Of a stretch of 64,000 bases of DNA, positions 1 through 64,000 are shown piece by piece. This DNA is from Brachyhypopomus gauderio. Taxonomy: Eukaryota > Chordata > Actinopteri > Gymnotiformes > Hypopomidae. The notes below the pieces were generated by a model. That model was not told where the DNA came from and did no database searches. It saw only the letters and a list, made by a program, of their open reading frames with translations. The position numbers and the translations under genes are program-made. Every line of letters starts with the position of its first letter. The first letter of the stretch is position 1. The stretch covers positions 7,794,386-7,858,385 of the forward strand of contig NC_135211.1 in NCBI RefSeq assembly GCF_052324685.1, written 5' to 3'.

Positions 1-85
1 ACTGGAAATGATGATTCTTGCCTCTTCCAATTCAACATAAATTCACCTTCTTTCGTGAAAAAGTCGGCAAAGTCTTCTTCATAGA
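1..85 (+). repeat. Partial spacer, 3' end of the preceding unit
   Basis: This is the last 85 bp of a unit whose tRNA lies outside the window. It ends with the usual leader to the tRNA at 86. The leader has AAGTCGGCAAAGTCTT rather than the symmetric AAGTCGGCAAAGACTT found before most copies. Confidence 0.95.
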
Positions 86-167
86 GGTAGCGTGGCCGAG
101 TGGTCTAAGGCGCTGGATTTAAGCTCTGTTCTCTTCGGAGGCGTGGGTTCAAATCCCACCGCTACCA
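86..167 (+). tRNA. U1: tRNA-Leu (UAA), anticodon-stem wobble variant
   Basis: This is an 82-nt class II leucine tRNA that would carry leucine to UUA (and by wobble UUG) codons. The acceptor GGTAGCG pairs perfectly with CGCTACC and the discriminator is A73. The D stem is GCCG/AGGC with G18G19. The anticodon loop is TTTAAGC. The variable arm is CTC-TTCG-GAG, and the T arm is GTGGG-TTCAAAT-CCCAC. There is no intron and no encoded CCA, as in eukaryotic nuclear genes. The 3' anticodon strand is TCTGT instead of TCCAT, so G29·U41 and U28·G42 are wobbles, on top of the C27·U43 mismatch shared by the array. The spacer carries GCCAAGTCAC and AACTGGCTG, also found in U17 and U30. It could be functional, but its anticodon stem is weak. 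Confidence 0.9.
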
Positions 168-867
168 AGTGGAGTTTTACAAACACTCACGGTCAGTTGT
201 GCCCCTGCCAAGTCACTTGTCTATGTGAAAAGAAGAAAACGAGTAGCGAAAAGAAAGAAGAAGCAGCAACTCATCCAACATCGTCATCCTTTCCAAGTCC
301 CTTTAAATGCCATCTGCAGGGGTTTTAACTGGCTGTTCATATTTTTGTTGCTTAATATTTCATATAGCTAAATGATATGCAAGTCATTAATGACACATAA
401 GCAGCAGCAATCCACTCAAGATGGGCCTTTTAATTATCCAAGGAGTTCAAGCTGGTATGTCAAAATGGGAACGGTGCTGTGTCCCTCCAAGAAAACGACT
501 TGATACAAATATGCTATGTACACTACCAGATTGTCATGTACTCTGAGTCTAAGCTGTGAGAATTCATAGCACACCAATAAACCCATGCTGAAATTGGAAC
601 ATTTGTAATGTGCAGGGTGTTAAAAGGCCGGACGATAAAACGTAAGCGTTCATCTACTTATTCAGAATGGCAGGAGAAGAAAGAAGATCAAGTAGTGACA
701 TATCCTGCCAGGATGCCTTTTGCAATGTGTTGTATGTGACTGTGTGCTGAGGCGAGGTTGAAGAGGAAGCTGCTTTTATCAGACTGGAAATGATGATTCT
801 TGCCTCTTCCAATTCAACATAAATTCACCTTCTTTCGTGAAAAAGTCGGCAAAGACTTCTTCATAGA

Positions 868-949
868 GGTAGCGTGGCTGTGTGGTCTAAGGCGCTGCAT
901 TTAAGCTCCATTCTCGTTCGAGGCGTGGGTTCAAATCCCACCGCTACCA
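868..949 (+). tRNA. U2: tRNA-Leu (UAA), degenerate (A14U, G30C)
   Basis: C12→U and A14→U change the A box to TGGCTGTGTGG and remove the base that normally pairs with U8. G30→C puts C30 opposite C40 in the anticodon stem. The variable arm is CTC-GTTC-GAG, still paired, and the acceptor stem is fully paired (C66). The B box, anticodon and A73 are intact. It is probably a tRNA pseudogene or a poor substrate. The same sequence recurs in U18 and U31. The spacer has the 2-bp insertion. Confidence 0.82.
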
Positions 950-1651
950 AGTGGAGTTTTACAAACACTCACGGTCAGTTGTGCCCCTGCCAAATCACTT
1001 GTCTATGTGAAAAGAAGAAAACGAGTAGCGAAAAGAAAGAAGAAGCAGCAACTCATCCATCATCAAGTCATCCTTTCCAAGTCCCTTTAAATGCCATCTG
1101 CAGGGGTTTTAACTTGCTGTTCATATTTTTGTTGCTTAATATTTCATATAGCTAAATGATATGCAAGTCATTAATGACACATAAGCAGCAGCAATCCACT
1201 CAAGATGGCCCTTTTAATTATCCAAGGAGTTCAAGCTGGTATGTCAAAATGGGAACGGTGCTGTGTCCCTCCAAGAAAACGACTTGATACAAATATGCTA
1301 TGTACACTACCAGATTGTCATGTACTCTGAGTCTAAGCTGTGAGAATTCATAGCACACCAATAAACCCATGCTGAAATTGGAACATTTGTAATGTGCAGG
1401 GTGTTAAAAGGCCGGACGATAAAACGTAAGCGTTCATCTACTTATTCAGAATGGCAGGAGAAGAAAGAAGATCAAGTAGTGACATATCCTGCCAGGATGC
1501 CTTTTGCAAAGTGTTGTATGTGACTGTGTGCTGAGGCGAGGTTGAAGAGGAAGCTGCTTTTATGAGACTGGAAATGATGATTCTTGCCTCTTCCAATTCA
1601 ACATAAATTCACCTTCTTTCGTGAAAAAGTCGGCAAAGTCTTCTTCATAGA

Positions 1652-1733
1652 GGTAGCGTGGCCGAGTGGTCTAAGGCGCTGGATTTAAGCTCCATTCTCT
1701 TCGGAGGCGTGGGTTCAAATCCCACTGCTACCA
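1652..1733 (+). tRNA. U3: tRNA-Leu (UAA), common form
   Basis: This copy has the commonest tRNA sequence in the array, with a G7·U66 wobble in an otherwise paired acceptor stem. The spacer has TGATAATTC, so it lacks the EcoRI site of most units. It is the first member of a three-unit higher-order repeat with U4 and U5. Confidence 0.93.
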
Positions 1734-1948
1734 AGTGGAGTTTTACAAACACTCACGGTCAGTTGTGCCCCTGCCAAATCACTTGTCTATGTGAAAAGAA
1801 GAAAACGAGTAGCGAAAAGAAAGAAGAAGCAGCAACTCATCCATCATCGTCATCCTTTCCAAGTCCCTTTAAATGCCATCTGCAGGGGTTTTAACTTGCT
1901 GTTCATATTTTTGTTGCTTAATATTTCATATAGCTAAATGATATGCAA

Positions 1949-1960
1949 GTCATTAATGAC
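1949..1960 (+). other. 12-bp perfect palindrome in the spacer (reference unit U3)
   Basis: GTCATTAATGAC is its own reverse complement and lies 297 nt from the tRNA start. About two thirds of units keep it; the others have GTCATTTATGAC. It could be a dimeric protein site or chance. Confidence 0.5.
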
Positions 1961-2141
1961 ACATAAGCAGCAGCAATCCACTCAAGATGGGCCTTTTAAT
2001 TATCCAAGGAGTTCAAGCTGGTATGTCAAAATGGGAACGGTGCTGTGTCCCTCCAAGAAAACGACTTGATACAAATATGCTATGTACACTACCAGATTGT
2101 CATGTACTCTGAGTCTAAGCTGTGATAATTCATAGCACACC

Positions 2142-2147
2142 AATAAA
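2142..2147 (+). other. AATAAA hexamer in the spacer (reference unit U3)
   Basis: This is a poly(A)-signal-like hexamer present at the same place (490 nt from the tRNA start) in every unit I read. No Pol II promoter or coding region goes with it, so it is probably incidental. Confidence 0.3.
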
Positions 2148-2408
2148 CCCATGCTGAAATTGGAACATTTGTAATGTGCAGGGTGTTAAAAGGCCGGACG
2201 ATAAAACGTAAGCGTTCATCTACTTATTCAGAATGGCAGGAGAAGAAAGAAGATCAAGTAGTGACATATCCTGCCAGGATGCCTTTTGCAAAGTGTTGTA
2301 TGTGACTGTGTGCTGAGGCGAGGTTGAAGAGGAAGCTGCTTTTATGAGACTGGAAATGATGATTCTTGCCTCTTCCAATTCAACATAAATTCACCTTCTT
2401 TCGTGAAA

Positions 2409-2424
2409 AAGTCGGCAAAGACTT
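2409..2424 (+). promoter_or_regulatory. 5-bp inverted repeat in the tRNA leader (reference unit U4)
   Basis: AAGTC-GGCAAA-GACTT ends 9 bp before the tRNA, in the region where TFIIIB normally sits upstream of tRNA genes. Many units have it; in others (for example U1, U3, U6, U16, U19, U46) GACTT is GTCTT and the symmetry is lost. A function is not shown. Confidence 0.4.
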
Positions 2425-2440
2425 CTTCATAGAGGTAGCG

Positions 2441-2451
2441 TGGCCGAGTGG
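2441..2451 (+). promoter_or_regulatory. A box of the Pol III internal promoter (reference unit U4)
   Basis: TGGCCGAGTGG matches the eukaryotic tRNA A box consensus (TGGCNNAGTGG), bound by TFIIIC. It lies 7–17 nt into every gene. In 13 copies A14→U changes it to TGGCCGTGTGG or TGGCTGTGTGG. Confidence 0.92.
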
Positions 2452-2493
2452 TCTAAGGCGCTGGATTTAAGCTCCATTCTCTTCGGAGGCGTG

Positions 2494-2504
2494 GGTTCAA
2501 ATCC
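2494..2504 (+). promoter_or_regulatory. B box of the Pol III internal promoter (reference unit U4)
   Basis: GGTTCAAATCC fits the B-box consensus GGTTCRANNCC, the high-affinity TFIIIC site. By reading each gene I find it unchanged in all 82 copies, 60 nt from the tRNA start. Confidence 0.93.
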
Positions 2505-2522
2505 CACTGCTACCAAGTGGAG

Positions 2523-2526
2523 TTTT
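2523..2526 (+). terminator. Pol III terminator T4 (reference unit U4)
   Basis: TTTT follows the gene after a 7-nt trailer (AGTGGAG) in every copy except U28. A second T4 run (GGGGTTTTAAC) and a T5 run (ATATTTTTG) lie further down each spacer and could act as back-ups. Confidence 0.88.
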
Positions 2527-31481: not shown

Positions 31482-32183
31482 AGTGGAGTTTTACAAACAC
31501 TCACGGTCAGTTGTGCCCCTGCCAAATCACTTGTCTATGTGAAAAGAAGAAAACGAGTAGTGAAAAGAAAGAAGAAGCAGCAACTCATCCATCATCAAGT
31601 CATCCTTTCCAAGTCCCTTTAAATGCCATCTGCAGGGGTTTTAACTTGCTGTTCATATTTTTGTTGCTTAATATTTCATATAGCTAAATGATATGCAAGT
31701 CATTAATGACACATAAGCAGCAACAATCCACTCAAGATGGGCCTTTTAATTATCCAAGGAGTTCAAGCTGGTATGTCAAAATGGGAACGGTGCTGTGTCC
31801 CTCCAAGAAAACGACTTGATACAAATATGCTATGTACACTACCAGATTGTCATGTACTCTGAGTCTAAGCTGTGAGAATTCATAGCACACCAATAAACCC
31901 ATGCTGAAATTGGAACATTTGTAATGTGCAGGGTGTTAAAAGGCCGGACGATAAAACGTAAGCGTTCATCTACTTATTCAGAATGGCAGGAGAAGAAAGA
32001 AGATCAAGTAGTGACATATCCTGCCAGGATGCCTTTTGCAAAGTGTTGTATGTGACTGTGTGCTAAGGCGACGTTGAAGACGAAGCTGCTTTTATCAGAC
32101 TGGAAATGATGATTCTTACCTCTTCCAATTCAACATAAATTTACCTTCTTTCGTGAAAAAGTCGGCAAAGACTTCTTCATAGA

Positions 32184-32265
32184 GGTAGCGTGGCCGAGTG
32201 GTCTAAGGCGCTGGATTTAAGCTCCATTCTCTTCGGAGGCGTGGGTTCAAATCCCACCGCTACCA
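32184..32265 (+). tRNA. U42: tRNA-Leu (UAA), fully paired acceptor
   Basis: C66 form and first unit of the 7-kb block that is duplicated at 44710. Its counterpart is U58. Confidence 0.93.
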
Positions 32266-32967
32266 AGTGGAGTTTTACAAACACTCACGGTCAGTTGTGC
32301 CCCTGCCAAATCACTTGTCTATGTGAAAAGAAGAAAACGAGTAGTGAAAAGAAAGAAGAAGCAGCAACTCATCCATCATCAAGTCATCCTTTCCAAGTCC
32401 CTTTAAATGCCATCTGCAGGGGTTTTAACTTGCTGTTCATATTTTTGTTGCTTAATATTTCATATAGCTAAATGATATGCAAGTCATTTATGACACATAA
32501 GCAGCAGCAATCCACTCAAGATGGGCCTTTTAATTATCCAAGGAGTTCAAGCAGGTATGTCAAAATGGGAACGGTGCTGTGTCCCTCCAAGAAAACGACT
32601 TGATACAAGTATGCTATGTACACTACCAGATTGTCATGTACTCTGAGTCTAAGCTGTGAGAATTCATAGCACACCAATAAACCCATGCTGAAATTGGAAC
32701 ATTAGTAATGTGCAGGGTGTTAAAAGGCCGGACGATAAAACGTAAGCGTTCATCTACTTATTCAGAATGGCAGGAGAAGAAAGAAGATCAAGTAGTGACA
32801 TATCCTGCCAGGATGCCTTTTGCAAAGTGTTGTATGTGACTGTGTGCTGAGGCGAGGTTGAAGAGGAAGCTGCTTTTATCAGACTGGAAATGATGATTCT
32901 TGCCTCTTCCAATTCAACATAAATTCACCTTCTTTCTTGAAAAAGTCGGCAAAGACTTCTTCATAGA

Positions 32968-33049
32968 GGTAGCGTGGCCGAGTGGTCTAAGGCGCTGGAT
33001 TTAAGCTCCATTCTCTTCGGAGGCGTGGGTTCAAATCCCACCGCTACAA
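32968..33049 (+). tRNA. U43: tRNA-Leu (UAA), acceptor mismatch (C72A)
   Basis: G1·A72 with C66, dimer partner of U42. The counterpart in the duplicated block is U59. Confidence 0.86.
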
Positions 33050-33751
33050 AGTGGAGTTTTACAAACACTCACGGTCAGTTGTGCCCCTGCCAAATCACTT
33101 GTCTATGTGAAAAGAAGAAAACGAGTAGCGAAAAGAAAGAAGAAGCAGCAACTCATCCATCATCAAGTCATCCTTTCCAAGTCCCTTTAAATGCCATCTG
33201 CAGGGGTTTTAACTTGCTGTTCATATTTTTGTTGCTTAATATTTCATATAGCTAAATGATATGCAAGTCATTAATGACACATAAGCAGCAGCAATCCACT
33301 CAAGATGGCCCTTTTAATTATCCAAGGAGTTCAAGCTGGTATGTCAAAATGGGAACGGTGCTGTGTCCCTCCAAGAAAACGACTTGATACAAATATGCTA
33401 TGTACACTACCAGATTGTCATGTACTCTGAGTCTAAGCTGTGAGAATTCATAGCACACCAATAAACCCATGCTGAAATTGGAACATTTGTAATGTGCAGG
33501 GTGTTAAAAGGCCGGACGATAAAACGTAAGCGTTCATCTACTTATTCAGAATGGCAGGAGAAGAAAGAAGATCAAGTAGTGACATATCCTGCCAGGATGC
33601 CTTTTGCAAAGTGTTGTATGTGACTGTGTGCTAAGGCGACGTTGAAGACGAAGCTGCTTTTATCAGACTGGAAATGATGATTCTTACCTCTTCCAATTCA
33701 ACATAAATTTACCTTCTTTCGTGAAAAAGTCGGCAAAGACTTCTTCATAGA

Positions 33752-33833
33752 GGTAGCGTGGCCGAGTGGTCTAAGGCGCTGGATTTAAGCTCCATTCTCT
33801 TCGGAGGCGTGGGTTCAAATCCCACCGCTACCA
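33752..33833 (+). tRNA. U44: tRNA-Leu (UAA), fully paired acceptor
   Basis: C66 form, repeating U42 after 1568 bp. The counterpart is U60. Confidence 0.93.
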
Positions 33834-34535
33834 AGTGGAGTTTTACAAACACTCACGGTCAGTTGTGCCCCTGCCAAATCACTTGTCTATGTGAAAAGAA
33901 GAAAACGAGTAGTGAAAAGAAAGAAGAAGCAGCAACTCATCCATCATCAAGTCATCCTTTCCAAGTCCCTTTAAATGCCATCTGCAGGGGTTTTAACTTG
34001 CTGTTCATATTTTTGTTGCTTAATATTTCATATAGCTAAATGATATGCAAGTCATTTATGACACATAAGCAGCAGCAATCCACTCAAGATGGGCCTTTTA
34101 ATTATCCAAGGAGTTCAAGCAGGTATGTCAAAATGGGAACGGTGCTGTGTCCCTCCAAGAAAACGACTTGATACAAGTATGCTATGTACACTACCAGATT
34201 GTCATGTACTCTGAGTCTAAGCTGTGAGAATTCATAGCACACCAATAAACCCATGCTGAAATTGGAACATTAGTAATGTGCAGGGTGTTAAAAGGCCGGA
34301 CGATAAAACGTAAGCGTTCATCTACTTATTCAGAATGGCAGGAGAAGAAAGAAGATCAAGTAGTGACATATCCTGCCAGGATGCCTTTTGCAAAGTGTTG
34401 TATGTGACTGTGTGCTGAGGCGAGGTTGAAGAGGAAGCTGCTTTTATCAGACTGGAAATGATGATTCTTGCCTCTTCCAATTCAACATAAATTCACCTTC
34501 TTTCTTGAAAAAGTCGGCAAAGACTTCTTCATAGA

Positions 34536-34617
34536 GGTAGCGTGGCCGAGTGGTCTAAGGCGCTGGATTTAAGCTCCATTCTCTTCGGAGGCGTGGGTTC
34601 AAATCCCACCGCTACAA
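34536..34617 (+). tRNA. U45: tRNA-Leu (UAA), acceptor mismatch (C72A)
   Basis: G1·A72 with C66. The spacer ends with TTTATGAGAC and GCTGAGGCGAGG, unlike U43. The counterpart is U61. Confidence 0.86.
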
Positions 34618-35319
34618 AGTGGAGTTTTACAAACACTCACGGTCAGTTGTGCCCCTGCCAAATCACTTGTCTATGTGAAAAGAAGAAAACGAGTAGCGAA
34701 AAGAAAGAAGAAGCAGCAACTCATCCATCATCAAGTCATCCTTTCCAAGTCCCTTTAAATGCCATCTGCAGGGGTTTTAACTTGCTGTTCATATTTTTGT
34801 TGCTTAATATTTCATATAGCTAAATGATATGCAAGTCATTAATGACACATAAGCAGCAGCAATCCACTCAAGATGGCCCTTTTAATTATCCAAGGAGTTC
34901 AAGCTGGTATGTCAAAATGGGAACGGTGCTGTGTCCCTCCAAGAAAACGACTTGATACAAATATGCTATGTACACTACCAGATTGTCATGTACTCTGAGT
35001 CTAAGCTGTGAGAATTCATAGCACACCAATAAACCCATGCTGAAATTGGAACATTTGTAATGTGCAGGGTGTTAAAAGGCCGGACGATAAAACGTAAGCG
35101 TTCATCTACTTATTCAGAATGGCAGGAGAAGAAAGAAGATCAAGTAGTGACATATCCTGCCAGGATGCCTTTTGCAAAGTGTTGTATGTGACTGTGTGCT
35201 GAGGCGAGGTTGAAGAGGAAGCTGCTTTTATGAGACTGGAAATGATGATTCTTGCCTCTTCCAATTCAACATAAATTCACCTTCTTTCGTGAAAAAGTTG
35301 GCAAAGTCTTCTTCATAGA

Positions 35320-35401
35320 GGTAGCGTGGCCGAGTGGTCTAAGGCGCTGGATTTAAGCTCCATTCTCTTTGTAGGCGTGGGTTCAAATCCCACTGCTACC
35401 A
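35320..35401 (+). tRNA. U46: tRNA-Leu (UAA), broken variable stem
   Basis: The variable arm is CTC-TTTG-TAG, so one of its three pairs is lost. The long variable arm is a class II identity feature and its length is kept. The leader has AAAGTTGGC. Private spacer changes TTGACTATG and GAAATGAAG (35454–35466) are absent from the counterpart U62, so they post-date the duplication. Confidence 0.85.
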
Positions 35402-36101
35402 AGTGGAGTTTTACAAACACTCACGGTCAGTTGTGCCCCTGCCAAATCACTTGACTATGTGAAATGAAGAAAACGAGTAGCGAAAAGAAAGAAGAAGCAG
35501 CAACTCATCCATCATCGTCATCCTTTCCAAGTCCCTTTAAATGCCATCTGCAGGGGTTTTAACTTGCTGTTCATATTTTTGTTGCTTAATATTTCATATA
35601 GCTAAATGATATGCAAGTCATTAATGACACATAAGCAGCAGCAATCCACTCAAGATGGGCCTTTTAATTATCCAAGGAGTTCAAGCTGGTATGTCAAAAT
35701 GGGAACGGTGCTGTGTCCCTCCAAGAAAACGACTTGATACAAATATGCTATGTACACTACCAGATTGTCATGTACTCTGAGTCTAAGCTGTGAGAATTCA
35801 TAGCACACCAATAAACCCATGCTGAAATTCGAACATTTGTAATGTGCAGGGTGTTAAAAGGCCGGACGATAAAACGTAAGCGTTCATCTACTTATTCAGA
35901 ATGGCAGGAGAAGAAAGAAGATCAAGTAGTGACATATCCTGCCAGGATGCCTTTTGCAATGTGTTGTATGTGACTGTGTGCTGAGGCGAGGTTGAAGAGG
36001 AAGCTGCTTTTATCAGACTGGAAATGATGATTCTTGCCTCTTCCAATTCAACATAAATTCACCTTCTTTCGTGAAAAAGTCGGCAAAGACTTCTTCATAG
36101 A

Positions 36102-36183
36102 GGTAGCGTGGCCGTGTGGTCTAAGGCGCTGCATTTAAGCTCCATTCTCGTCGGAGGCGTGGGTTCAAATCCCACCGCTACCA
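36102..36183 (+). tRNA. U47: tRNA-Leu (UAA), degenerate (A14U, G30C)
   Basis: A14→U and a C30·C40 mismatch with variable loop GTCG; C12 is normal, unlike U2. The spacer has AACGAATGGATAC, where other units read AACGACTTGATAC, and ATAGAACACC. The counterpart is U63. Confidence 0.82.
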
Positions 36184-36885
36184 AGTGGAGTTTTACAAAC
36201 ACTCACGGTCAGTTGTGCCCCTGCCAAATCACTTGTCTATGTGAAAAGAAGAAAACGAGTAGCGAAAAGAAAGAAGAAGCAGCAACTCATCCATCATCAA
36301 GTCATCCTTTCCAAGTCCCTTTAAATGCCATCTGCAGGGGTTTTAACTTGCTGTTCATATTTTTGTTGCTTAATATTTCATATAGCTAAATGATATGCAA
36401 GTCATTAATGACACATAAGCAGCAGCAATCCACTCAAGATGGCCCTTTTAATTATCCAAGGAGTTCAAGCTGGTATGTCAAAATGGGAACGGTGCTGTGT
36501 CCCTCCAAGAAAACGAATGGATACAAATATGCTATGTACACTACCAGATTGTCATGTACTCTGAGTCTAAGCTGTGAGAATTCATAGAACACCAATAAAC
36601 CCATGCTGAAATTGGAACATTTGTAATGTGCAGGGTGTTAAAAGGCCGGACGATAAAACGTAAGCGTTCATCTACTTATTCAGAATGGCAGGAGAAGAAA
36701 GAAGATCAAGTAGTGACATATCCTGCCAGGATGCCTTTTGCAAAGTGTTGTATGTGACTGTGTGCTGAGGCGAGGTTGAAGAGGAAGCTGCTTTTATCAC
36801 ACTGGAAATGATGATTCTTGCCTCTTCCAATTCAACATAAATTCGCCTTCTTTCGTGAAAAAGTCGGCAAAGACTTCTTCAAAGA

Positions 36886-36967
36886 GGTAGCGTGGCCGAG
36901 TGGTCTAAGGCGCTGGATTTAAGCTCCATTCTCTTCGGAGGCATGGGTTCAAATCCCACCGCTTCCA
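36886..36967 (+). tRNA. U48: tRNA-Leu (UAA), degenerate (G49A, A70U)
   Basis: Two stem lesions: A49·C65 closing the T stem and U3·U70 in the acceptor. The leader is TTCAAAGAG. The counterpart is U64. Confidence 0.83.
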
Positions 36968-37667
36968 AGTGGAGTTTTACAAACACTCACGGTCAGTTGT
37001 GCCCCTGCCAAGTCACTTGTCTATGTGAAAAGAAGAAAACGAGTGGCGAAAAGAAAGAAGAAGCAGCAACTCATCCAACATCGTCATCCTTTTCAAGTCC
37101 CTTTAAATGCCATCTGCAGGGGTTTTAACTTGCTGTTCATATTTTTGTTGCTTAATATTTCATATAGCTAAATGATATGCAAGTCATTAATGACACATAA
37201 GCAGCAGCAATCCACTCAAGATGGGCCTTTTAATTATCCAAGGAGTTCAAGCTGGTATGTCAAAATGGGAACGGTGCTGTGTCCCTCCAAGAAAACGACT
37301 TGATACAAATATGCTATGTACACTACCAGATTGTCATGTACTCTGAGTCTAAGCTGTGAGAATTCATAGCACACCAATAAACCCATGCTGAAATTGGAAC
37401 ATTTGTAATGTGCAGGGTGTTAAAAGGCCGGACGATAAAACGTAAGCGTTCATCTACTTATTCAGAATGGCAGGAGAAGAAAGAAGATCAAGTAGTGACA
37501 TATCCTGCCAGGATGCCTTTTGCAAAGTGTTGTATGTGACTGTGTGCTGAGGCGAGGTTGAAGAGGAAGCTGCTTTTATCAGACTGGAAATGATGATTCT
37601 TGCCTCTTCCAATTCAACATAAATTCACCTTCTTTCGTGAAAAAGTCGGCAAAGACTTCTTCATAGA

Positions 37668-37749
37668 GGTAGCGTGGCCGAGTGGTCTAAGGCGCTGGAT
37701 TTAAGCTCCATTCTCTTCGCAGGCGTGGGTTCAAATCCCACCGCTTCCA
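37668..37749 (+). tRNA. U49: tRNA-Leu (UAA), degenerate (A70U, variable stem)
   Basis: U3·U70 in the acceptor, and CTC-TTCG-CAG breaks one variable-arm pair. The spacer has a 2-bp gain, ACTCTGTGAGTC, near 38126, which makes this unit 784 bp without the AA insertion. The counterpart is U65. Confidence 0.83.
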
Positions 37750-38451
37750 AGTGGAGTTTTACAAACACTCACGGTCAGTTGTGCCCCTGCCAAGTCACTT
37801 GTCTATGTGAAAAGAAGAAAACGAGTAGCGAAAAGAAAGAAGAAGCAGCAACTCATCCATCATCGTCATCCTTTCCAAGTCCCTTTAAATGCCATCTGCA
37901 GGGGTTTTAACTTGCTGTTCATATTTTTGTTGCTTAATATTTCATATAGCTAAATGATATGCAAGTCATTAATGACACATAAGCAGCAGCAATCCACTCA
38001 AGATGGGCCTTTTAATTATCCAAGGAGTTCAAGCTGGTATGTCAAAATGGGAACGATGCTGTGTCCCTCCAAGAAAACGACTTGATACAAATATGCTATG
38101 TACACTACCAGATTGTCATGTACTCTGTGAGTCTAAGCTGTGAGAATTCATAGCACACCAATAAACCCATGCTGAAATTGGAACATTTGTAATGTGCAGG
38201 GTGTTAAAAGGCCGGACGATAAAACGTAAGCGTTCATCTACTTATTCAGAATGGCAGGAGAAGAAAGAAGATCAAGTAGTGACATATCCTGCCAGGATGC
38301 CTTTTGCAAAGTGTTGTATGTGACTGTGTCCTGAGGCGAGGTTGAAGAGGAAGCTGCTTTTATCAGACTGGAAATGATGATTCTTGCCTCTTCCAATTCA
38401 ACATAAATTCACCTTCTTTCGTGAAAAAGTCGGCAAAGACTTCTTCATAGA

Positions 38452-38533
38452 GGTTGCGTGGCCGTGTGGTCTAAGGCGCTGCATTTAAGCTCCATTCTCT
38501 TTGGAGGCGTGGGTTCAAATCCCACCGCTACCA
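38452..38533 (+). tRNA. U50: tRNA-Leu (UAA), degenerate (A4U, A14U, G30C)
   Basis: Three lesions: U4·U69 in the acceptor (GGTTGCG), loss of A14, and C30·C40. The variable loop is TTTG. The spacer has TTAAGATTTC and TTTAAAAGCC. It is near-identical to U66 and U68. Among the most damaged copies. Confidence 0.8.
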
Positions 38534-39233
38534 AGTGGAGTTTTACAAACACTCACGGTCAGTTGTGCCCCTGCCAAATCACTTGTCTATGTGAAAAGAA
38601 GAAAACGAGTAGCGAAAAGAAAGAAGAAGCAGCAACTCATCCATCATCGTCATCCTTTCCAAGTCCCTTTAAAAGCCATCTGCAGGGGTTTTAACTTGCT
38701 GTTCATATTTTTGTTGCTTAAGATTTCATATAGCTAAATGATATGCAAGTCATTTATGACACATAAGCAGCAGCAATCCACTCAAGATGGGCCTTTTAAT
38801 TATCCAAGGAGTTCAAGCTGGTATGTCAAAATGGGAACGGTGCTGTGTCCCTCCAAGAAAACGACTTGATACAAATATGCTATGTACACTACCAGATTGT
38901 CATGTACTCTGAGTCTAAGCTGTGAGAATTCATAGCACACCAATAAACCCATGCTGAAATTGGAACATTTGTAATGTGCAGGGTGTTAAAAGGCCGGACG
39001 ATAAAACGTAAGCGTTCATCTACTTATTCTGAATGGCAGGAGAAGAAAGAAGATCAAGTAGTGACATATCCTGCCAGGATGCCTTTTGCAAAGTGTTGTA
39101 TGTGACTGTGTGCTGAGGCGAGGTTGAAGAGGAAGCTGCTTTTATCAGACTGGAAATGATGATTCTTGCCTCTTCCAATTCAACATAAATTCACATTCTT
39201 TCGTGAAAAAGTCGGCAAAGACTTCTTCATAGA

Positions 39234-44009: not shown

Positions 44010-44709
44010 AGTGGAGTTTTACAAACACTCACGGTCAGTTGTGCCCCTGCCAAATCACTTGTCTATGTGAAAAGAAGAAAACGAGTAGCGAAAAGAAAGA
44101 AGAAGCAGCAACTCATCCATCCTTGTCATCCTTTCCAAGTCCCTTTAAATGCCATCTGCAGGGGTTTTAACTTGCTGTTCATATTTTTGTTGCTTAATAT
44201 TTCATATAGCTAAATGATATGCAAGTCATTAATGACACATAAGCAGCAACAATCCACTCAAGATGGGCCTTTTAATTATCCAAGGAGTTCAAGCTGGTAT
44301 GTCAAAATGGGAACGGTGCTGTGTCCCTCCAAGAAAACGACTTGATACAAATATGCTATGTACACTACCAGATTGTCATGTACTCTGAGTCTAAGCTGTG
44401 AGAATTCATAGCACACCAATAAACCCATGCTGAAATTGGAACATTTGTAATGTGCAGGGTGTTAAAAGGCCGGACGATAAAACGTAAGCGTTCATCTACT
44501 TATTCAGAATGGCAGGAGAAGAAAGAAGATCAAGTAGTGACATATCCTGCCAGGATGCCTTTTGCAAAGTGTTGTATGTGACTGTGTGCTAAGGCGACGT
44601 TGAAGACGAAGCTGCTTTTATCAGACTGGAAATGATGATTCTTACCTCTTCCAATTCAACATAAATTTACCTTCTTTCGTGAAAAAGTCGGCAAAGACTT
44701 CTTCATAGA

Positions 44710-44791
44710 GGTAGCGTGGCCGAGTGGTCTAAGGCGCTGGATTTAAGCTCCATACTCTTCGGAGGCGTGGGTTCAAATCCCACCGCTACCA
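44710..44791 (+). tRNA. U58: tRNA-Leu (UAA), fully paired acceptor, U44A
   Basis: C66 form with a private change after the anticodon stem (TCCAT-A-CTC). The base is outside any stem, so little effect is expected. Counterpart of U42. Confidence 0.92.
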
Positions 44792-45493
44792 AGTGGAGTT
44801 TTACAAACACTCACGGTCAGTTGTGCCCCTGCCAAATCACTTGTCTATGTGAAAAGAAGAAAACGAGTAGTGAAAAGAAAGAAGAAGCAGCAACTCATCC
44901 ATCATCAAGTCATCCTTTCCAAGTCCCTTTAAATGCCATCTGCAGGGGTTTTAACTTGCTGTTCATATTTTTGTTGCTTAATATTTCATATAGCTAAATG
45001 ATATGCAAGTCATTTATGACACATAAGCAGCAGCAATCCACTCAAGATGGGCCTTTTAATTATCCAAGGAGTTCAAGCAGGTATGTCAAAATGGGAACGG
45101 TGCTGTGTCCCTCCAAGAAAACGACTTGATACAAGTATGCTATGTACACTACCAGATTGTCATGTACTCTGAGTCTAAGCTGTGAGAATTCATAGCACAC
45201 CAATAAACCCATGCTGAAATTGGAACATTAGTAATGTGCAGGGTGTTAAAAGGCCGGACGATAAAACGTAAGCGTTCATCTACTTATTCAGAATGGCAGG
45301 AGAAGAAAGAAGATCAAGTAGTGACATATCCTGCCAGGATGCCTTTTGCAAAGTGTTGTATGTGACTGTGTGCTGAGGCGAGGTTGAAGAGGAAGCTGCT
45401 TTTATCAGACTGGAAATGATGATTCTTGCCTCTTCCAATTCAACATAAATTCACCTTCTTTCTTGAAAAAGTCGGCAAAGACTTCTTCATAGA

Positions 45494-45575
45494 GGTAGCG
45501 TGGCCGAGTGGTCTAAGGCGCTGGATTTAAGCTCCATTCTCTTCGGAGGCGTGGGTTCAAATCCCACCGCTACAA
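45494..45575 (+). tRNA. U59: tRNA-Leu (UAA), acceptor mismatch (C72A)
   Basis: G1·A72 with C66; counterpart of U43, with the same spacer markers. Confidence 0.86.
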
Positions 45576-46277
45576 AGTGGAGTTTTACAAACACTCACGG
45601 TCAGTTGTGCCCCTGCCAAATCACTTGTCTATGTGAAAAGAAGAAAACGAGTAGCGAAAAGAAAGAAGAAGCAGCAACTCATCCATCATCAAGTCATCCT
45701 TTCCAAGTCCCTTTAAATGCCATCTGCAGGGGTTTTAACTTGCTGTTCATATTTTTGTTGCTTAATATTTCATATAGCTAAATGATATGCAAGTCATTAA
45801 TGACACATAAGCAGCAGCAATCCACTCAAGATGGCCCTTTTAATTATCCAAGGAGTTCAAGCTGGTATGTCAAAATGGGAACGGTGCTGTGTCCCTCCAA
45901 GAAAACGACTTGATACAAATATGCTATGTACACTACCAGATTGTCATGTACTCTGAGTCTAAGCTGTGAGAATTCATAGCACACCAATAAACCCATGCTG
46001 AAATTGGAACATTTGTAATGTGCAGGGTGTTAAAAGGCCGGACGATAAAACGTAAGCGTTCATCTACTTATTCAGAATGGCAGGAGAAGAAAGAAGATCA
46101 AGTAGTGACATATCCTGCCAGGATGCCTTTTGCAAAGTGTTGTATGTGACTGTGTGCTAAGGCGACGTTGAAGACGAAGCTGCTTTTATCAGACTGGAAA
46201 TGATGATTCTTACCTCTTCCAATTCAACATAAATTTACCTTCTTTCGTGAAAAAGTCGGCAAAGACTTCTTCATAGA

Positions 46278-46359
46278 GGTAGCGTGGCCGAGTGGTCTAA
46301 GGCGCTGGATTTAAGCTCCATTCTCTTCGGAGGCGTGGGTTCAAATCCCACCGCTACCA
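46278..46359 (+). tRNA. U60: tRNA-Leu (UAA), fully paired acceptor
   Basis: C66 form; counterpart of U44. Confidence 0.93.
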
Positions 46360-47061
46360 AGTGGAGTTTTACAAACACTCACGGTCAGTTGTGCCCCTGC
46401 CAAATCACTTGTCTATGTGAAAAGAAGAAAACGAGTAGTGAAAAGAAAGAAGAAGCAGCAACTCATCCATCATCAAGTCATCCTTTCCAAGTCCCTTTAA
46501 ATGCCATCTGCAGGGGTTTTAACTTGCTGTTCATATTTTTGTTGCTTAATATTTCATATAGCTAAATGATATGCAAGTCATTTATGACACATAAGCAGCA
46601 GCAATCCACTCAAGATGGGCCTTTTAATTATCCAAGGAGTTCAAGCAGGTATGTCAAAATGGGAACGGTGCTGTGTCCCTCCAAGAAAACGACTTGATAC
46701 AAGTATGCTATGTACACTACCAGATTGTCATGTACTCTGAGTCTAAGCTGTGAGAATTCATAGCACACCAATAAACCCATGCTGAAATTGGAACATTAGT
46801 AATGTGCAGGGTGTTAAAAGGCCGGACGATAAAACGTAAGCGTTCATCTACTTATTCAGAATGGCAGGAGAAGAAAGAAGATCAAGTAGTGACATATCCT
46901 GCCAGGATGCCTTTTGCAAAGTGTTGTATGTGACTGTGTGCTGAGGCGAGGTTGAAGAGGAAGCTGCTTTTATCAGACTGGAAATGATGATTCTTGCCTC
47001 TTCCAATTCAACATAAATTCACCTTCTTTCTTGAAAAAGTCGGCAAAGACTTCTTCATAGA

Positions 47062-47143
47062 GGTAGCGTGGCCGAGTGGTCTAAGGCGCTGGATTTAAGC
47101 TCCATTCTCTTCGGAGGCGTGGGTTCAAATCCCACCGCTACAA
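47062..47143 (+). tRNA. U61: tRNA-Leu (UAA), acceptor mismatch (C72A)
   Basis: G1·A72 with C66; counterpart of U45, including TTTATGAGAC at the spacer end. Confidence 0.86.
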
Positions 47144-47845
47144 AGTGGAGTTTTACAAACACTCACGGTCAGTTGTGCCCCTGCCAAATCACTTGTCTAT
47201 GTGAAAAGAAGAAAACGAGTAGCGAAAAGAAAGAAGAAGCAGCAACTCATCCATCATCAAGTCATCCTTTCCAAGTCCCTTTAAATGCCATCTGCAGGGG
47301 TTTTAACTTGCTGTTCATATTTTTGTTGCTTAATATTTCATATAGCTAAATGATATGCAAGTCATTAATGACACATAAGCAGCAGCAATCCACTCAAGAT
47401 GGCCCTTTTAATTATCCAAGGAGTTCAAGCTGGTATGTCAAAATGGGAACGGTGCTGTGTCCCTCCAAGAAAACGACTTGATACAAATATGCTATGTACA
47501 CTACCAGATTGTCATGTACTCTGAGTCTAAGCTGTGAGAATTCATAGCACACCAATAAACCCATGCTGAAATTGGAACATTTGTAATGTGCAGGGTGTTA
47601 AAAGGCCGGACGATAAAACGTAAGCGTTCATCTACTTATTCAGAATGGCAGGAGAAGAAAGAAGATCAAGTAGTGACATATCCTGCCAGGATGCCTTTTG
47701 CAAAGTGTTGTATGTGACTGTGTGCTGAGGCGAGGTTGAAGAGGAAGCTGCTTTTATGAGACTGGAAATGATGATTCTTGCCTCTTCCAATTCAACATAA
47801 ATTCACCTTCTTTCGTGAAAAAGTTGGCAAAGTCTTCTTCATAGA

Positions 47846-47927
47846 GGTAGCGTGGCCGAGTGGTCTAAGGCGCTGGATTTAAGCTCCATTCTCTTTGTAG
47901 GCGTGGGTTCAAATCCCACTGCTACCA
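47846..47927 (+). tRNA. U62: tRNA-Leu (UAA), broken variable stem
   Basis: CTC-TTTG-TAG variable arm and AAAGTTGGC leader, as in U46, but with the normal TTGTCTATG and GAAAAGAAG after the gene. AAATTCGAAC near 48351 is shared with U46. Confidence 0.85.
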
Positions 47928-48627
47928 AGTGGAGTTTTACAAACACTCACGGTCAGTTGTGCCCCTGCCAAATCACTTGTCTATGTGAAAAGAAGAAAAC
48001 GAGTAGCGAAAAGAAAGAAGAAGCAGCAACTCATCCATCATCGTCATCCTTTCCAAGTCCCTTTAAATGCCATCTGCAGGGGTTTTAACTTGCTGTTCAT
48101 ATTTTTGTTGCTTAATATTTCATATAGCTAAATGATATGCAAGTCATTAATGACACATAAGCAGCAGCAATCCACTCAAGATGGGCCTTTTAATTATCCA
48201 AGGAGTTCAAGCTGGTATGTCAAAATGGGAACGGTGCTGTGTCCCTCCAAGAAAACGACTTGATACAAATATGCTATGTACACTACCAGATTGTCATGTA
48301 CTCTGAGTCTAAGCTGTGAGAATTCATAGCACACCAATAAACCCATGCTGAAATTCGAACATTTGTAATGTGCAGGGTGTTAAAAGGCCGGACGATAAAA
48401 CGTAAGCGTTCATCTACTTATTCAGAATGGCAGGAGAAGAAAGAAGATCAAGTAGTGACATATCCTGCCAGGATGCCTTTTGCAATGTGTTGTATGTGAC
48501 TGTGTGCTGAGGCGAGGTTGAAGAGGAAGCTGCTTTTATCAGACTGGAAATGATGATTCTTGCCTCTTCCAATTCAACATAAATTCACCTTCTTTCGTGA
48601 AAAAGTCGGCAAAGACTTCTTCATAGA

Positions 48628-48709
48628 GGTAGCGTGGCCGTGTGGTCTAAGGCGCTGCATTTAAGCTCCATTCTCGTCGGAGGCGTGGGTTCAAATCCCA
48701 CCGCTACCA
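48628..48709 (+). tRNA. U63: tRNA-Leu (UAA), degenerate (A14U, G30C)
   Basis: Counterpart of U47, with the same lesions and the same AACGAATGGATAC spacer change. Confidence 0.82.
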
Positions 48710-49411
48710 AGTGGAGTTTTACAAACACTCACGGTCAGTTGTGCCCCTGCCAAATCACTTGTCTATGTGAAAAGAAGAAAACGAGTAGCGAAAAGAAAGA
48801 AGAAGCAGCAACTCATCCATCATCAAGTCATCCTTTCCAAGTCCCTTTAAATGCCATCTGCAGGGGTTTTAACTTGCTGTTCATATTTTTGTTGCTTAAT
48901 ATTTCATATAGCTAAATGATATGCAAGTCATTAATGACACATAAGCAGCAGCAATCCACTCAAGATGGCCCTTTTAATTATCCAAGGAGTTCAAGCTGGT
49001 ATGTCAAAATGGGAACGGTGCTGTGTCCCTCCAAGAAAACGAATGGATACAAATATGCTATGTACACTACCAGATTGTCATGTACTCTGAGTCTAAGCTG
49101 TGAGAATTCATAGAACACCAATAAACCCATGCTGAAATTGGAACATTTGTAATGTGCAGGGTGTTAAAAGGCCGGACGATAAAACGTAAGCGTTCATCTA
49201 CTTATTCAGAATGGCAGGAGAAGAAAGAAGATCAAGTAGTGACATATCCTGCCAGGATGCCTTTTGCAAAGTGTTGTATGTGACTGTGTGCTGAGGCGAG
49301 GTTGAAGAGGAAGCTGCTTTTATCACACTGGAAATGATGATTCTTGCCTCTTCCAATTCAACATAAATTCGCCTTCTTTCGTGAAAAAGTCGGCAAAGAC
49401 TTCTTCAAAGA

Positions 49412-49493
49412 GGTAGCGTGGCCGAGTGGTCTAAGGCGCTGGATTTAAGCTCCATTCTCTTCGGAGGCATGGGTTCAAATCCCACCGCTTCCA
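49412..49493 (+). tRNA. U64: tRNA-Leu (UAA), degenerate (G49A, A70U)
   Basis: Counterpart of U48: A49·C65 and U3·U70, with TTCAAAGAG leader. Confidence 0.83.
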
Positions 49494-50193
49494 AGTGGAG
49501 TTTTACAAACACTCACGGTCAGTTGTGCCCCTGCCAAGTCACTTGTCTATGTGAAAAGAAGAAAACGAGTGGCGAAAAGAAAGAAGAAGCAGCAACTCAT
49601 CCAACATCGTCATCCTTTTCAAGTCCCTTTAAATGCCATCTGCAGGGGTTTTAACTTGCTGTTCATATTTTTGTTGCTTAATATTTCATATAGCTAAATG
49701 ATATGCAAGTCATTAATGACACATAAGCAGCAGCAATCCACTCAAGATGGGCCTTTTAATTATCCAAGGAGTTCAAGCTGGTATGTCAAAATGGGAACGG
49801 TGCTGTGTCCCTCCAAGAAAACGACTTGATACAAATATGCTATGTACACTACCAGATTGTCATGTACTCTGAGTCTAAGCTGTGAGAATTCATAGCACAC
49901 CAATAAACCCATGCTGAAATTGGAACATTTGTAATGTGCAGGGTGTTAAAAGGCCGGACGATAAAACGTAAGCGTTCATCTACTTATTCAGAATGGCAGG
50001 AGAAGAAAGAAGATCAAGTAGTGACATATCCTGCCAGGATGCCTTTTGCAAAGTGTTGTATGTGACTGTGTGCTGAGGCGAGGTTGAAGAGGAAGCTGCT
50101 TTTATCAGACTGGAAATGATGATTCTTGCCTCTTCCAATTCAACATAAATTCACCTTCTTTCGTGAAAAAGTCGGCAAAGACTTCTTCATAGA

Positions 50194-50275
50194 GGTAGCG
50201 TGGCCGAGTGGTCTAAGGCGCTGGATTTAAGCTCCATTCTCTTCGCAGGCGTGGGTTCAAATCCCACCGCTTCCA
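50194..50275 (+). tRNA. U65: tRNA-Leu (UAA), degenerate (A70U, variable stem)
   Basis: Counterpart of U49, including the 2-bp gain ACTCTGTGAGTC near 50652. It has a private GCCCCTTCCAAG at about 50310, so the two blocks have begun to diverge. Confidence 0.83.
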
Positions 50276-50977
50276 AGTGGAGTTTTACAAACACTCACGG
50301 TCAGTTGTGCCCCTTCCAAGTCACTTGTCTATGTGAAAAGAAGAAAACGAGTAGCGAAAAGAAAGAAGAAGCAGCAACTCATCCATCATCGTCATCCTTT
50401 CCAAGTCCCTTTAAATGCCATCTGCAGGGGTTTTAACTTGCTGTTCATATTTTTGTTGCTTAATATTTCATATAGCTAAATGATATGCAAGTCATTAATG
50501 ACACATAAGCAGCAGCAATCCACTCAAGATGGGCCTTTTAATTATCCAAGGAGTTCAAGCTGGTATGTCAAAATGGGAACGATGCTGTGTCCCTCCAAGA
50601 AAACGACTTGATACAAATATGCTATGTACACTACCAGATTGTCATGTACTCTGTGAGTCTAAGCTGTGAGAATTCATAGCACACCAATAAACCCATGCTG
50701 AAATTGGAACATTTGTAATGTGCAGGGTGTTAAAAGGCCGGACGATAAAACGTAAGCGTTCATCTACTTATTCAGAATGGCAGGAGAAGAAAGAAGATCA
50801 AGTAGTGACATATCCTGCCAGGATGCCTTTTGCAAAGTGTTGTATGTGACTGTGTCCTGAGGCGAGGTTGAAGAGGAAGCTGCTTTTATCAGACTGGAAA
50901 TGATGATTCTTGCCTCTTCCAATTCAACATAAATTCACCTTCTTTCGTGAAAAAGTCGGCAAAGACTTCTTCATAGA

Positions 50978-51059
50978 GGTTGCGTGGCCGTGTGGTCTAA
51001 GGCGCTGCATTTAAGCTCCATTCTCTTTGGAGGCGTGGGTTCAAATCCCACCGCTACCA
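50978..51059 (+). tRNA. U66: tRNA-Leu (UAA), degenerate (A4U, A14U, G30C)
   Basis: Counterpart of U50 and last unit of the second block. The spacer retains TATTCTGAATGG, also in U50. Confidence 0.8.
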
Positions 51060-51759
51060 AGTGGAGTTTTACAAACACTCACGGTCAGTTGTGCCCCTGC
51101 CAAATCACTTGTCTATGTGAAAAGAAGAAAACGAGTAGCGAAAAGAAAGAAGAAGCAGCAACTCATCCATCATCGTCATCCTTTCCAAGTCCCTTTAAAA
51201 GCCATCTGCAGGGGTTTTAACTTGCTGTTCATATTTTTGTTGCTTAAGATTTCATATAGCTAAATGATATGCAAGTCATTTATGACACATAAGCAGCAGC
51301 AATCCACTCAAGATGGGCCTTTTAATTATCCAAGGAGTTCAAGCTGGTATGTCAAAATGGGAACGGTGCTGTGTCCCTCCAAGAAAACGACTTGATACAA
51401 ATATGCTATGTACACTACCAGATTGTCATGTACTCTGAGTCTAAGCTGTGAGAATTCATAGCACACCAATAAACCCATGCTGAAATTGGAACATTTGTAA
51501 TGTGCAGGGTGTTAAAAGGCCGGACGATAAAACGTAAGCGTTCATCTACTTATTCTGAATGGCAGGAGAAGAAAGAAGATCAAGTAGTGACATATCCTGC
51601 CAGGATGCCTTTTGCAAAGTGTTGTATGTGACTGTGTGCTGAGGCGAGGTTGAAGAGGAAGCTGCTTTTATCAGACTGGAAATGATGATTCTTGCCTCTT
51701 CCAATTCAACATAAATTCACCTTCTTTCGTGAAAAAGTCGGCAAAGACTTCTTCAAAGA

Positions 51760-61225: not shown

Positions 61226-61925
61226 AGTGGAGTTTTACAAACACTCACGGTCAGTTGTGCCCCTGCCAAATCACTTGTCTATGTGAAAAGAAGAAAACGA
61301 GTAGCGAAAAGAAAGAAGAAGCAGCAACTCATCCATCATCGTCATCCTTTCCAAGTCCCTTTAAATGCCATCTGCAGGGGTTTTAACTTGCTGTTCATAT
61401 TTTTGTTGCTTAATATTTCATATAGCTAAATGATATGCAAGTCATTAATGACACATAAGCAGCAGCAATCCACTCAAGATGGGCCTTTTAATTATCCAAG
61501 GAGTTCAAGCTGGTATGTCAAAATGGGAACGGTGCTGTGTCCCTCCAAGAAAACGACTTGATACAAATATGCTATGTACACTACCAGATTGTCATGTACT
61601 CTGAGTCTAAGCTGTGAGAATTCATAGCACACCAATAAACCCATGCTGAAATTGGAACATTTGTAATGTGCAGGGTGTTAAAAGGCCGGACGATAAAACG
61701 TAAGCGTTCATCTACTTATTCAGAATGGCAGGAGAAGAAAGAAGATCAAGTAGTGACATATCCTGCCAGGATGCCTTTTGCAATGTGTTGTATGTGACTG
61801 TGTGCTGAGGCGAGGTTGAAGAGGAAGCTGCTTTTGTCAGACTGGAAATGATGATTCTTGCCTCTTCCAATTCAACATAAATTCACCTTCTTTCGTGAAA
61901 AAGTCGGCAAAGACTTCTTCATAGA

Positions 61926-62007
61926 GGTAGCGTGGCCGAGTGGTCTAAGGCGCTGGATTTAAGCTCCATTCTCTTCGGAGGCGTGGGTTCAAATCCCACT
62001 GCTACCA
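61926..62007 (+). tRNA. U80: tRNA-Leu (UAA), common form
   Basis: U66 form with AAAACATAAGC and TTTATCACAC, as in U77. It follows U79 directly, so the dimer is locally a trimer. Confidence 0.93.
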
Positions 62008-62707
62008 AGTGGAGTTTTACAAACACTCACGGTCAGTTGTGCCCCTGCCAAATCACTTGTCTATGTGAAAAGAAGAAAACGAGTAGCGAAAAGAAAGAAG
62101 AAGCAGCAACTCATCCATCATCGTCATCCTTTCCAAGTCCCTTTAAATGCCATCTGCAGGGGTTTTAACTTGCTGTTCATATTTTTGTTGCTTAATATTT
62201 CATATAGCTAAATGATATGCAAGTCATTAATGACACATAAGCAGCAGCAATCCACTCAAGATGGGCCTTTTAATTATCCAAGGAGTTCAAGCTGGTATGT
62301 CAAAATGGGAACGGTGCTGTGTCCCTCCAAGAAAACGACTTGATACAAATATGCTATGTACACTACCAGATTGTCATGTACTCTGAGTCTAAGCTGTGAG
62401 AATTCATAGCACACCAATAAACCCATGCTGAAATTGGAACATTTGTAATGTGCAGGGTGTTAAAAGGCCGGACGATAAAACATAAGCGTTCATCTACTTA
62501 TTCAGAATGGCAGGAGAAGAAAGAAGATCAAGTAGTGACATATCCTGCCAGGATGCCTTTTGCAATGTGTTGTATGTGACTGTGTGCTGAGGCGAGGTTG
62601 AAGAGGAAGCTGCTTTTATCACACTGGAAATGATGATTCTTGCCTCTTCCAATTCAACATAAATTCACCTTCTTTCGTGAAAAAGTCGGCAAAGACTTCT
62701 TCATAGA

Positions 62708-62789
62708 GGTAGCGTGGCTGTGTGGTCTAAGGCGCTGGATTTAAGCTCCATTCTCGTTGGAGGCATGGGTTCAAATCCCACAGCTACCA
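62708..62789 (+). tRNA. U81: tRNA-Leu (UAA), degenerate (A14U, G49A, A66)
   Basis: Fifth copy of this gene type in the 3' region, with the U74-type spacer (GTTCAAGGTGG, CTTTTGTCAGAC). Confidence 0.81.
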
Positions 62790-63489
62790 AGTGGAGTTTT
62801 ACAAACACTCACGGTCAGTTGTGCCCCTGCCAAATCACTTGTCTATGTGAAAAGAAGAAAACGAGTAGCGAAAAGAAAGAAGAAGCAGCAACTCATCCAT
62901 CATCGTCATCCTTTCCAAGTCCCTTTAAATGCCATCTGCAGGGGTTTTAACTTGCTGTTCATATTTTTGTTGCTTAATATTTCATATAGCTAAATGATAT
63001 GCAAGTCATTAATGACACATAAGCAGCAGCAATCCACTCAAGATGGGCCTTTTAATTATCCAAGGAGTTCAAGGTGGTATGTCAAAATGGGAACGGTGCT
63101 GTGTCCCTCCAAGAAAACGACTTGATACAAATATGCTATGTACACTACCAGATTGTCATGTACTCTGAGTCTAAGCTGTGAGAATTCATAGCACACCAAT
63201 AAACCCATGCTGAAATTGGAACATTTGTAATGTGCAGGGTGTTAAAAGGCCGGACGATAAAACGTAAGCGTTCATCTACTTATTCAGAATGGCAGGAGAA
63301 GAAAGAAGATCAAGTAGTGACATATCCTGCCAGGATGCCTTTTGCAATGTGTTGTATGTGACTGTGTGCTGAGGCGAGGTTGAAGAGGAAGCTGCTTTTG
63401 TCAGACTGGAAATGATGATTCTTGCCTCTTCCAATTCAACATAAATTCACCTTCTTTCGTGAAAAAGTCGGCAAAGACTTCTTCATAGA

Positions 63490-63571
63490 GGTAGCGTGGC
63501 CGAGTGGTCTAAGGCGCTGGATTTAAGCTCCATTCTCTTCGGAGGCGTGGGTTCAAATCCCACTGCTACCA
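63490..63571 (+). tRNA. U82: tRNA-Leu (UAA), common form
   Basis: Last tRNA in the window, U66 form, with intact leader hairpin and terminator. Confidence 0.93.
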
Positions 63572-64000
63572 AGTGGAGTTTTACAAACACTCACGGTCAG
63601 TTGTGCCCCTGCCAAATCACTTGTCTATGTGAAAAGAAGAAAACGAGTAGCGAAAAGAAAGAAGAAGCAGCAACTCATCCATCATCGTCATCCTTTCCAA
63701 GTCCCTTTAAATGCCATCTGCAGGGGTTTTAACTTGCTGTTCATATTTTTGTTGCTTAATATTTCATATAGCTAAATGATATGCAAGTCATTAATGACAC
63801 ATAAGCAGCAGCAATCCACTCAAGATGGGCCTTTTAATTATCCAAGGAGTTCAAGCTGGTATGTCAAAATGGGAACGGTGCTGTGTCCCTCCAAGAAAAC
63901 GACTTGATACAAATATGCTATGTACACTACCAGATTGTCATGTACTCTGAGTCTAAGCTGTGAGAATTCATAGCACACCAATAAACCCATGCTGAAATTG
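63572..64000 (+). repeat. Partial spacer, truncated by window end
   Basis: This is the first 429 bp of U82's spacer. It has the perfect 12-bp palindrome and the AATAAA motif. Nothing in it signals the end of the array. Confidence 0.95.

Follow-up and report, generated by a model that had tools for sequence, protein, structure and literature searches.

A tandem array of tRNA-Leu(UAA) genes in Brachyhypopomus gauderio that is probably a satellite-like repeat built on a remoulded gene

When a chromosome carries the same transfer RNA (tRNA) gene dozens of times in a row, does the array supply tRNA, or has the gene become part of a satellite-like repeat that is free to drift? This question was raised by a 64,000-nt stretch of the Brachyhypopomus gauderio genome (assembly GCF_052324685.1, contig NC_135211.1, 7,794,386-7,858,385 of the forward strand; the whole stretch is called the window below), which is filled by copies of a tRNA-Leu gene. 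Our analysis favored the second answer: the array is probably satellite-like and would consist of a remoulded tRNA-Leu gene that is no longer detectably constrained and that has grown in number by unequal exchange and block duplication. The gene, rather than the spacer, was the most variable part of the repeated unit, so that in behavior the array is closer to a satellite repeat than to a protected gene.

ARAGORN analysis of the window revealed 82 tRNA-Leu genes from 86 to 63571, all on the + strand and all with the anticodon TAA, and no other type of tRNA gene in the 64 kb. The array occupied 1..64000 (+); its 81 whole units measured 782 or 784 bp, the window end cut the 82nd, and each unit carried a single tRNA-Leu(UAA) gene. 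The gene-to-gene step was 782 bp in 50 cases and 784 bp in 31, and the autocorrelation of the window was maximal at lag 782, with 71% identity, far above chance. The gene of unit 1 (86..167, +), identified by both ARAGORN and Rfam, was 82 bp long, had no intron and carried its anticodon at gene positions 35-37. A first spacer of 700 bp (168..867, +) led to the next gene, and the last gene in the window lay at 63490-63571 (+, ARAGORN). The Rfam scan covered the first 20 kb, where all 26 of the 26 tRNA genes of positions 1-20000 were matched by RF00005 with 43.8-61.4 bits (cut-off 29), and no other family was matched there at E<=1. A tandem-repeat finder reported no repeat in the window, presumably because its longest period is 500. 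The GC content of the unit was 42%, and CpG was depleted in the spacer to 0.46 of the expected value.

The host contig (C1, 55.04 Mb, in an assembly of 796.5 Mb in 840 contigs) carried the array 7.7-7.9 Mb from its start. The whole C1 array contained 170 readable units in 133.4 kb, with steps of 769-784 bp and with 168 TAA and 2 TAG anticodons, all tRNA-Leu; window unit n is unit n+79 of this array. An earlier note made from the window sequence had described at least 82 single-gene tRNA-Leu units on one strand, about 783 bp apart, and the gene calls and steps agreed with it. The same note had called the array UAA-only and without a visible end. Both statements were correct for the window, with 82 of 82 genes TAA, but not for the contig, as both TAG units fell outside the window and the array had a right end about 7.4 kb beyond it. 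At this end, the last whole unit was followed by a piece of 91% identity that stopped within the tRNA and jumped to a later part of the unit, and non-array sequence started to the right of this degenerate junction. To the left, the array continued for about 62 kb from the window to a run of N, past which readable non-array sequence was found.

To compare the gene with its spacer, the tests made on the 81 whole window units (the cut last unit was excluded from the window statistics) were redone on the 170 units, and columns with any gap were excluded from these diversity counts. The results showed that the nucleotide diversity (pi) was 0.0324 in the tRNA gene and 0.0115 in the ungapped spacer, so that the gene was not more conserved than its flank, as it would be in a functional family. 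Variable sites accounted for 29/82 positions in the gene and 117/673 in the spacer (Fisher p 0.0003), and outside CpG for 22/70 and 101/648 (p 0.002). Among 755 circular windows of 82 bp, the exact gene window ranked first, and the best window off the gene reached a pi of 0.0222. Diversity was also raised in the 20 bp upstream of the gene (0.0252) and was not raised in the 3' flank. Units with at least three gene changes (27/170) carried no excess of spacer changes (3.9 versus 4.6 in the others), and the numbers of gene and spacer changes were slightly negatively correlated, with a rho of -0.23 (-0.17, p 0.07 on distinct units).

The variants were then placed on the tRNA structure, with key bases and pairings taken from what we assume to be the standard tRNA anatomy. 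Among 33 distinct gene variants, 20 disrupted a pair or a key base, compared with 19.1 expected at random for the same transition share; since G7A was accompanied by T75 in its 10 copies, restoring a pair, 19 is the fairer count. The pair C28-U44 was lost in 170/170 copies, and 75/170 had a broken pair or a lost key base. One example is the degenerate gene copy at 868..949 (+), which had 6 changes from the consensus, including A14T and a broken anticodon-stem pair 31:41, and scored 43.8 bits. The consensus cloverleaf formed 22 pairs (-28.9 kcal/mol), and that of a second tRNA-Leu array on C1 (array 2, described below) formed 23 (-32.7); the lowest-energy fold differed from the cloverleaf in all three consensus tRNAs folded. 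By these sequence comparisons, purifying selection on the gene within the array was undetectable and the copies appeared unconstrained as a set; part of the array may retain a role.

The internal promoter elements were partly altered. We take 93..103 (+, TGGCCGAGTGG, including gene position A14) and 146..156 (+, GGTTCAAATCC) to be the A box and the B box of unit 1, as they resemble the consensus that we assume for these boxes. A14 was replaced by T in 22/170 copies. The B box was invariant in the 81 whole window units and unchanged in 157/170 copies of the whole array, with C at gene position 66 in 11/170 and changes at positions 70 and 71 in one copy each. Retention of the B box would agree with a structural element, such as an insulator, a heterochromatin seed or a replication barrier, that acts through putative TFIIIC/RNA polymerase III (Pol III) binding and needs no working tRNA; a precedent is the human 1q23.3 tRNA tandem repeat, which binds CTCF and is proposed as a boundary (PMC4041453). 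The loss of A14 in so many copies argues against such an element, which we regard as improbable.

The units themselves pointed to turnover. There were 105 distinct units among the 170, differing by a mean of 1.4% and by at most 34 substitutions, and these homogenised copies stood head to tail in a long array, as in a satellite. Blocks of units recurred along the array (an 11-unit block shifted by 13 units, 10-unit blocks shifted by 28 and by 15, and a 9-unit block shifted by 16), with 0-2 substitutions per unit pair and private changes inside the blocks. In the window, a 9-unit block (units 42-50, 32099..39148, +) was duplicated 16 units downstream (units 58-66, 44625..51674, +); the corresponding array units 121-129 and 137-145 differed by 1, 0, 0, 0, 2, 0, 0, 1 and 0 substitutions per pair. 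The mean difference between units climbed slowly with distance; it was about 9-10 for short lags and reached 13 for units 140 apart. Four-gamete combinations were present in 137/528 pairs of common sites and indicate either exchange between units or repeated mutation. This pattern fits turnover by unequal exchange together with local duplication. An array of this kind could also be an assembly artefact, in which a few real units are inflated by a looping assembly graph; the left side stops at a run of N, and a related piece begins at the end of a separate contig, C107. The sequences largely answer this worry, as an artefact would hardly yield 105 distinct units, private changes within duplicated blocks and a right end in non-array sequence, and we consider it very improbable.

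Genome-wide word searches extended the count. A 33-base spacer word had 118 forward and 41 reverse matches, and 118 lay in the C1 array. A second spacer word had 49 forward and 53 reverse matches; among the 100 matches listed, C1 had 49 and C107 had 51, those on C107 reaching as far as base 119,423 of its 526,187. Contig C107 starts within the array repeat (2,500/2,500 bases) in reverse orientation, and two pieces sampled from it were closest to the left part of the C1 array (98.8-98.9%). A third word with a T variant was matched 42 times in C1 and never in reverse, so the C1 and C107 arrays differ in make-up; C107 may represent a separate array, another haplotype or the missing continuation. 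The UAA core with U44 was matched 159 times forward, as often as in the C1 array itself, and 117 times in reverse; the places listed were those of forward matches. Scaling the 117 by 170/159 gives an estimate of about 125 further units and of about 295 in total with C107.

An analysis of the gene body revealed that it was of the Leu-UAG/AAG type, with an anticodon that seems to have shifted. The first 37 bases of the consensus gene equalled the mouse LeuTAG 5' fragment given in PMC11551137, except at gene positions 16 and 37, and the change at position 37 turns UAG into UAA. Array 2 had units of 690/691 bp in which tRNA-Leu AAG and TAG genes were intermixed, and the unit also contained a second, degenerate (dead) tRNA-Leu TAG copy (15 units compared). 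This array was sampled in two 9-kb stretches, C1:24714000-24722999 and C1:24785000-24793999, with 19 genes. The 17 units aligned omit the first, whose gene was one base too long, and the last, which was cut, and the 15 units counted omit one more cut by a stretch end and one with a large insertion. An inserted segment of about 3 kb was present in one unit of C1:24785000-24793999. When a unit of each array was aligned, 265 bp matched with 71% identity (E 1e-38), and the score was 146 bits, whereas 20 shuffles gave no more than 22.6 bits. The alignment paired the 5' flank and gene of the window unit with the dead UAG copy of array 2 and the 5' flank of that copy. The gene is thus homologous, by flank and body, to a gene with another anticodon, as in an isoacceptor shift. 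Because the 5' flank is common to the window gene and the dead UAG copy, it is likely that the switch from UAG to UAA took place in a gene that had yet to undergo the main amplification.

TAG was retained in five exact U44 copies, of which C1 had two, at its left, and C107 the other three; these few would be relics or back-changes. Outside the anticodon, the consensus genes of the two arrays were separated at positions 16, 44, 50, 66 and 79. Gene conversion from array 2 as the source of the variants was rejected by eye, with the array-2 letter found at 0/5 of these positions among the gene variants listed; the array-2 state at the anticodon was matched only by the 2 TAG units. Separately, one 5-unit haplotype had 12T, 58A and 75A in common with the dead array-2 copy, but 2/3 of these changes were at CpG, and this sharing was not used as evidence.

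Other tRNA runs were present in the genome. A Leu body pattern allowing either form of position 44 had 869 matches, 135 of them within the C1 array. With the canonical G44, the pattern had 604 exact matches (515 forward, 89 reverse), those among the 100 listed lying at C1:24.716-24.857 Mb, whereas the G44 pattern with a TAA anticodon had 0 matches in the genome, which supports the anticodon shift. A 30-base piece that we take to represent a regular Leu-UAA gene had 15 exact matches, 10 of them on contig C19 at 4.993-5.020 Mb, several exactly 759 bp apart, which looks like a small tandem cluster. A piece that we take to represent tRNA-Lys had 239 matches; the 100 listed formed two runs on C1, in which neighboring matches were about 1,390 and 1,387 bp apart or multiples of these. 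These runs lay in the first 240 kb of C1, from near the contig start, and from 1.726 to at least 1.820 Mb. The additional tRNA-Leu and tRNA-Lys runs show that large tRNA arrays are not rare in this genome.

Several observations weigh against an unconstrained, satellite-like array. In the spacer, the bin at columns 228-247 reached a pi of 0.0226, near that of the 20 bp upstream of the gene, and the variant sites are linked and the p-values post hoc. Apart from 28:44, 95/170 copies were sound in pairs and key bases; the TTTT terminator, of the Pol III type and placed just 3' of the gene (175..178, + in unit 1, from the sequence), was present in 169/170 units; and the commonest gene types scored 58-61 bits against the Rfam tRNA model within the scanned 20 kb. 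Greater diversity in the gene than in the spacer was likewise seen in array 2, which looks functional, so this feature alone is no mark of decay. Over its 15 units, the live gene varied at 8/82 sites (one being the AAG/TAG difference; pi 0.024), the dead copy at 4/82 (0.0085) and the spacer at 16/526 (0.0118); as the units fall in AAG and TAG classes, this diversity partly reflects the class difference. Relaxed constraint by itself is not enough to make a gene more diverse than its spacer, so this feature is only partly accounted for.

Heavy Pol III transcription in the germ line might make the gene the diversity peak, and the array would then record transcription-linked mutation without selective removal. 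The difference between the live gene and the dead copy of array 2 and the raised 20 bp upstream of the window gene would be internal controls for this idea. As the main cause, transcription-linked mutation was rejected, given that the 3' flank was not raised and transitions did not dominate; the 17 transversions and 16 transitions among the gene variants of the whole array are unlike deamination. We hold this idea only tentatively and think it rather unlikely. The spacer variants of the whole array comprised 75 transversions and 55 transitions, contrary to the transition excess usual in vertebrates.

The sound copies also bear on a stage-specific tRNA factory, in which the array would supply the egg with tRNA-Leu(UAA), by analogy with zebrafish tRNA clusters and oocyte 5S arrays, and with so many copies sharing the work, damaged ones would be tolerated. 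Zebrafish tRNA genes are for the most part located in repetitive clusters, and the maternally deposited isodecoders come from highly repetitive regions (PMC11417395). The 95 undamaged copies, the nearly universal terminator and the further tRNA arrays of the same genome agree with such a factory. However, the distinct variants disrupt the structure at the random rate, the gene varies more than the spacer, 28:44 is mismatched in every copy, and regular Leu-UAA pieces exist, 10/15 of them within 4.99-5.02 Mb of C19. A factory is the main rival explanation, possible but doubtful, and we retain the satellite-like array as the probable one.

A homogeneous tandem tRNA cluster, as described in PMC2888827, has neighbors less than 1000 nt apart and genes all for one amino acid, and both features were found here, in the 769-784-bp steps and the 168 TAA and 2 TAG genes for leucine. 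Teleost clusters (zebrafish chromosome 4, stickleback) likewise contain hundreds of parallel tandem tRNA genes, and C1 has more than one such run; however, the zebrafish clusters are reported to be mostly heterogeneous pairs (PMC2888827), whereas the two Leu arrays here contain tRNA-Leu only, and the window array is damaged and anticodon-shifted. The human 1q23.3 repeat is also a tRNA-bearing tandem repeat, unstable and with 9-43 units per allele, but its unit is 7.3 kb and GC-rich, and what human and mouse have kept in common is its tRNA genes and a CTCF site (PMC4041453); here the unit is 0.78 kb with 42% GC, and its single gene is the part most variable among units. Entamoeba also has long tandem tRNA arrays (PMC2652664), but the present array has one gene per unit and stands alongside other tRNA loci. 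As in the isoacceptor shifts of eukaryotes, the amino acid stayed the same and the anticodon was altered; 39/44 shifts reported in PMC3923123 alter the first anticodon base, whereas UAG to UAA alters the third, and amplification has taken the shifted gene here to well over 100 copies.

The exact 33-base spacer word had 0 matches in GTDB genomes and 0 in viral contigs, and the unit had no match in plasmids. Among phages, 4 records gave short weak matches, two of them annotated as phage tRNA-Leu. Literature titles and abstract openings named no comparable one-gene tRNA-Leu(UAA) array, which is weak evidence since subscription papers mostly fell outside this scope. In the right flank, a frame with a Sugar_tr domain (a glucose-transporter-like sugar transporter) was found about 50 kb past the right end of the array. 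About 75-107 kb to the right of the first base of the window, there were a long interspersed element (LINE)-type reverse-transcriptase frame (RVT_1) and frames that we take to resemble Ty3-type retrotransposon proteins.

In the course of events that we propose, the anticodon of a tRNA-Leu(UAG) gene with its 5' flank would have changed to UAA, with loss of the stem pair 28:44, and a unit of about 783 bp carrying this gene would then have multiplied through unequal exchange and block duplication, reaching at least 170 copies, or by estimate 295 if C107 is included. The copies as a set would now be without detectable constraint to make a good tRNA. Many of them keep the promoter boxes and terminator and may be transcribed, in which case surplus tRNA-Leu(UAA) would result; the regular tRNA-Leu(UAA) sequences elsewhere would leave the array free to drift. 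The earlier note had proposed that the array acts like a satellite built on a Pol III gene, and the undetectable purifying selection, the diversity peak in the gene and the block duplications fit this proposal, although the note had overlooked the UAG/AAG-type body with its shifted anticodon and the 75/170 damaged copies. The locus would thus present a tRNA gene whose anticodon changed, which multiplied in tandem and which escaped constraint, and a sister array with the older anticodon elsewhere in this genome can be compared with it. Here one can test whether the giant tRNA arrays of fish serve as egg-stage factories or drift as satellites, and whether germline mutation is raised by Pol III transcription once selection no longer acts. 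Counts of tRNA genes from such genomes may overstate the number of working genes.

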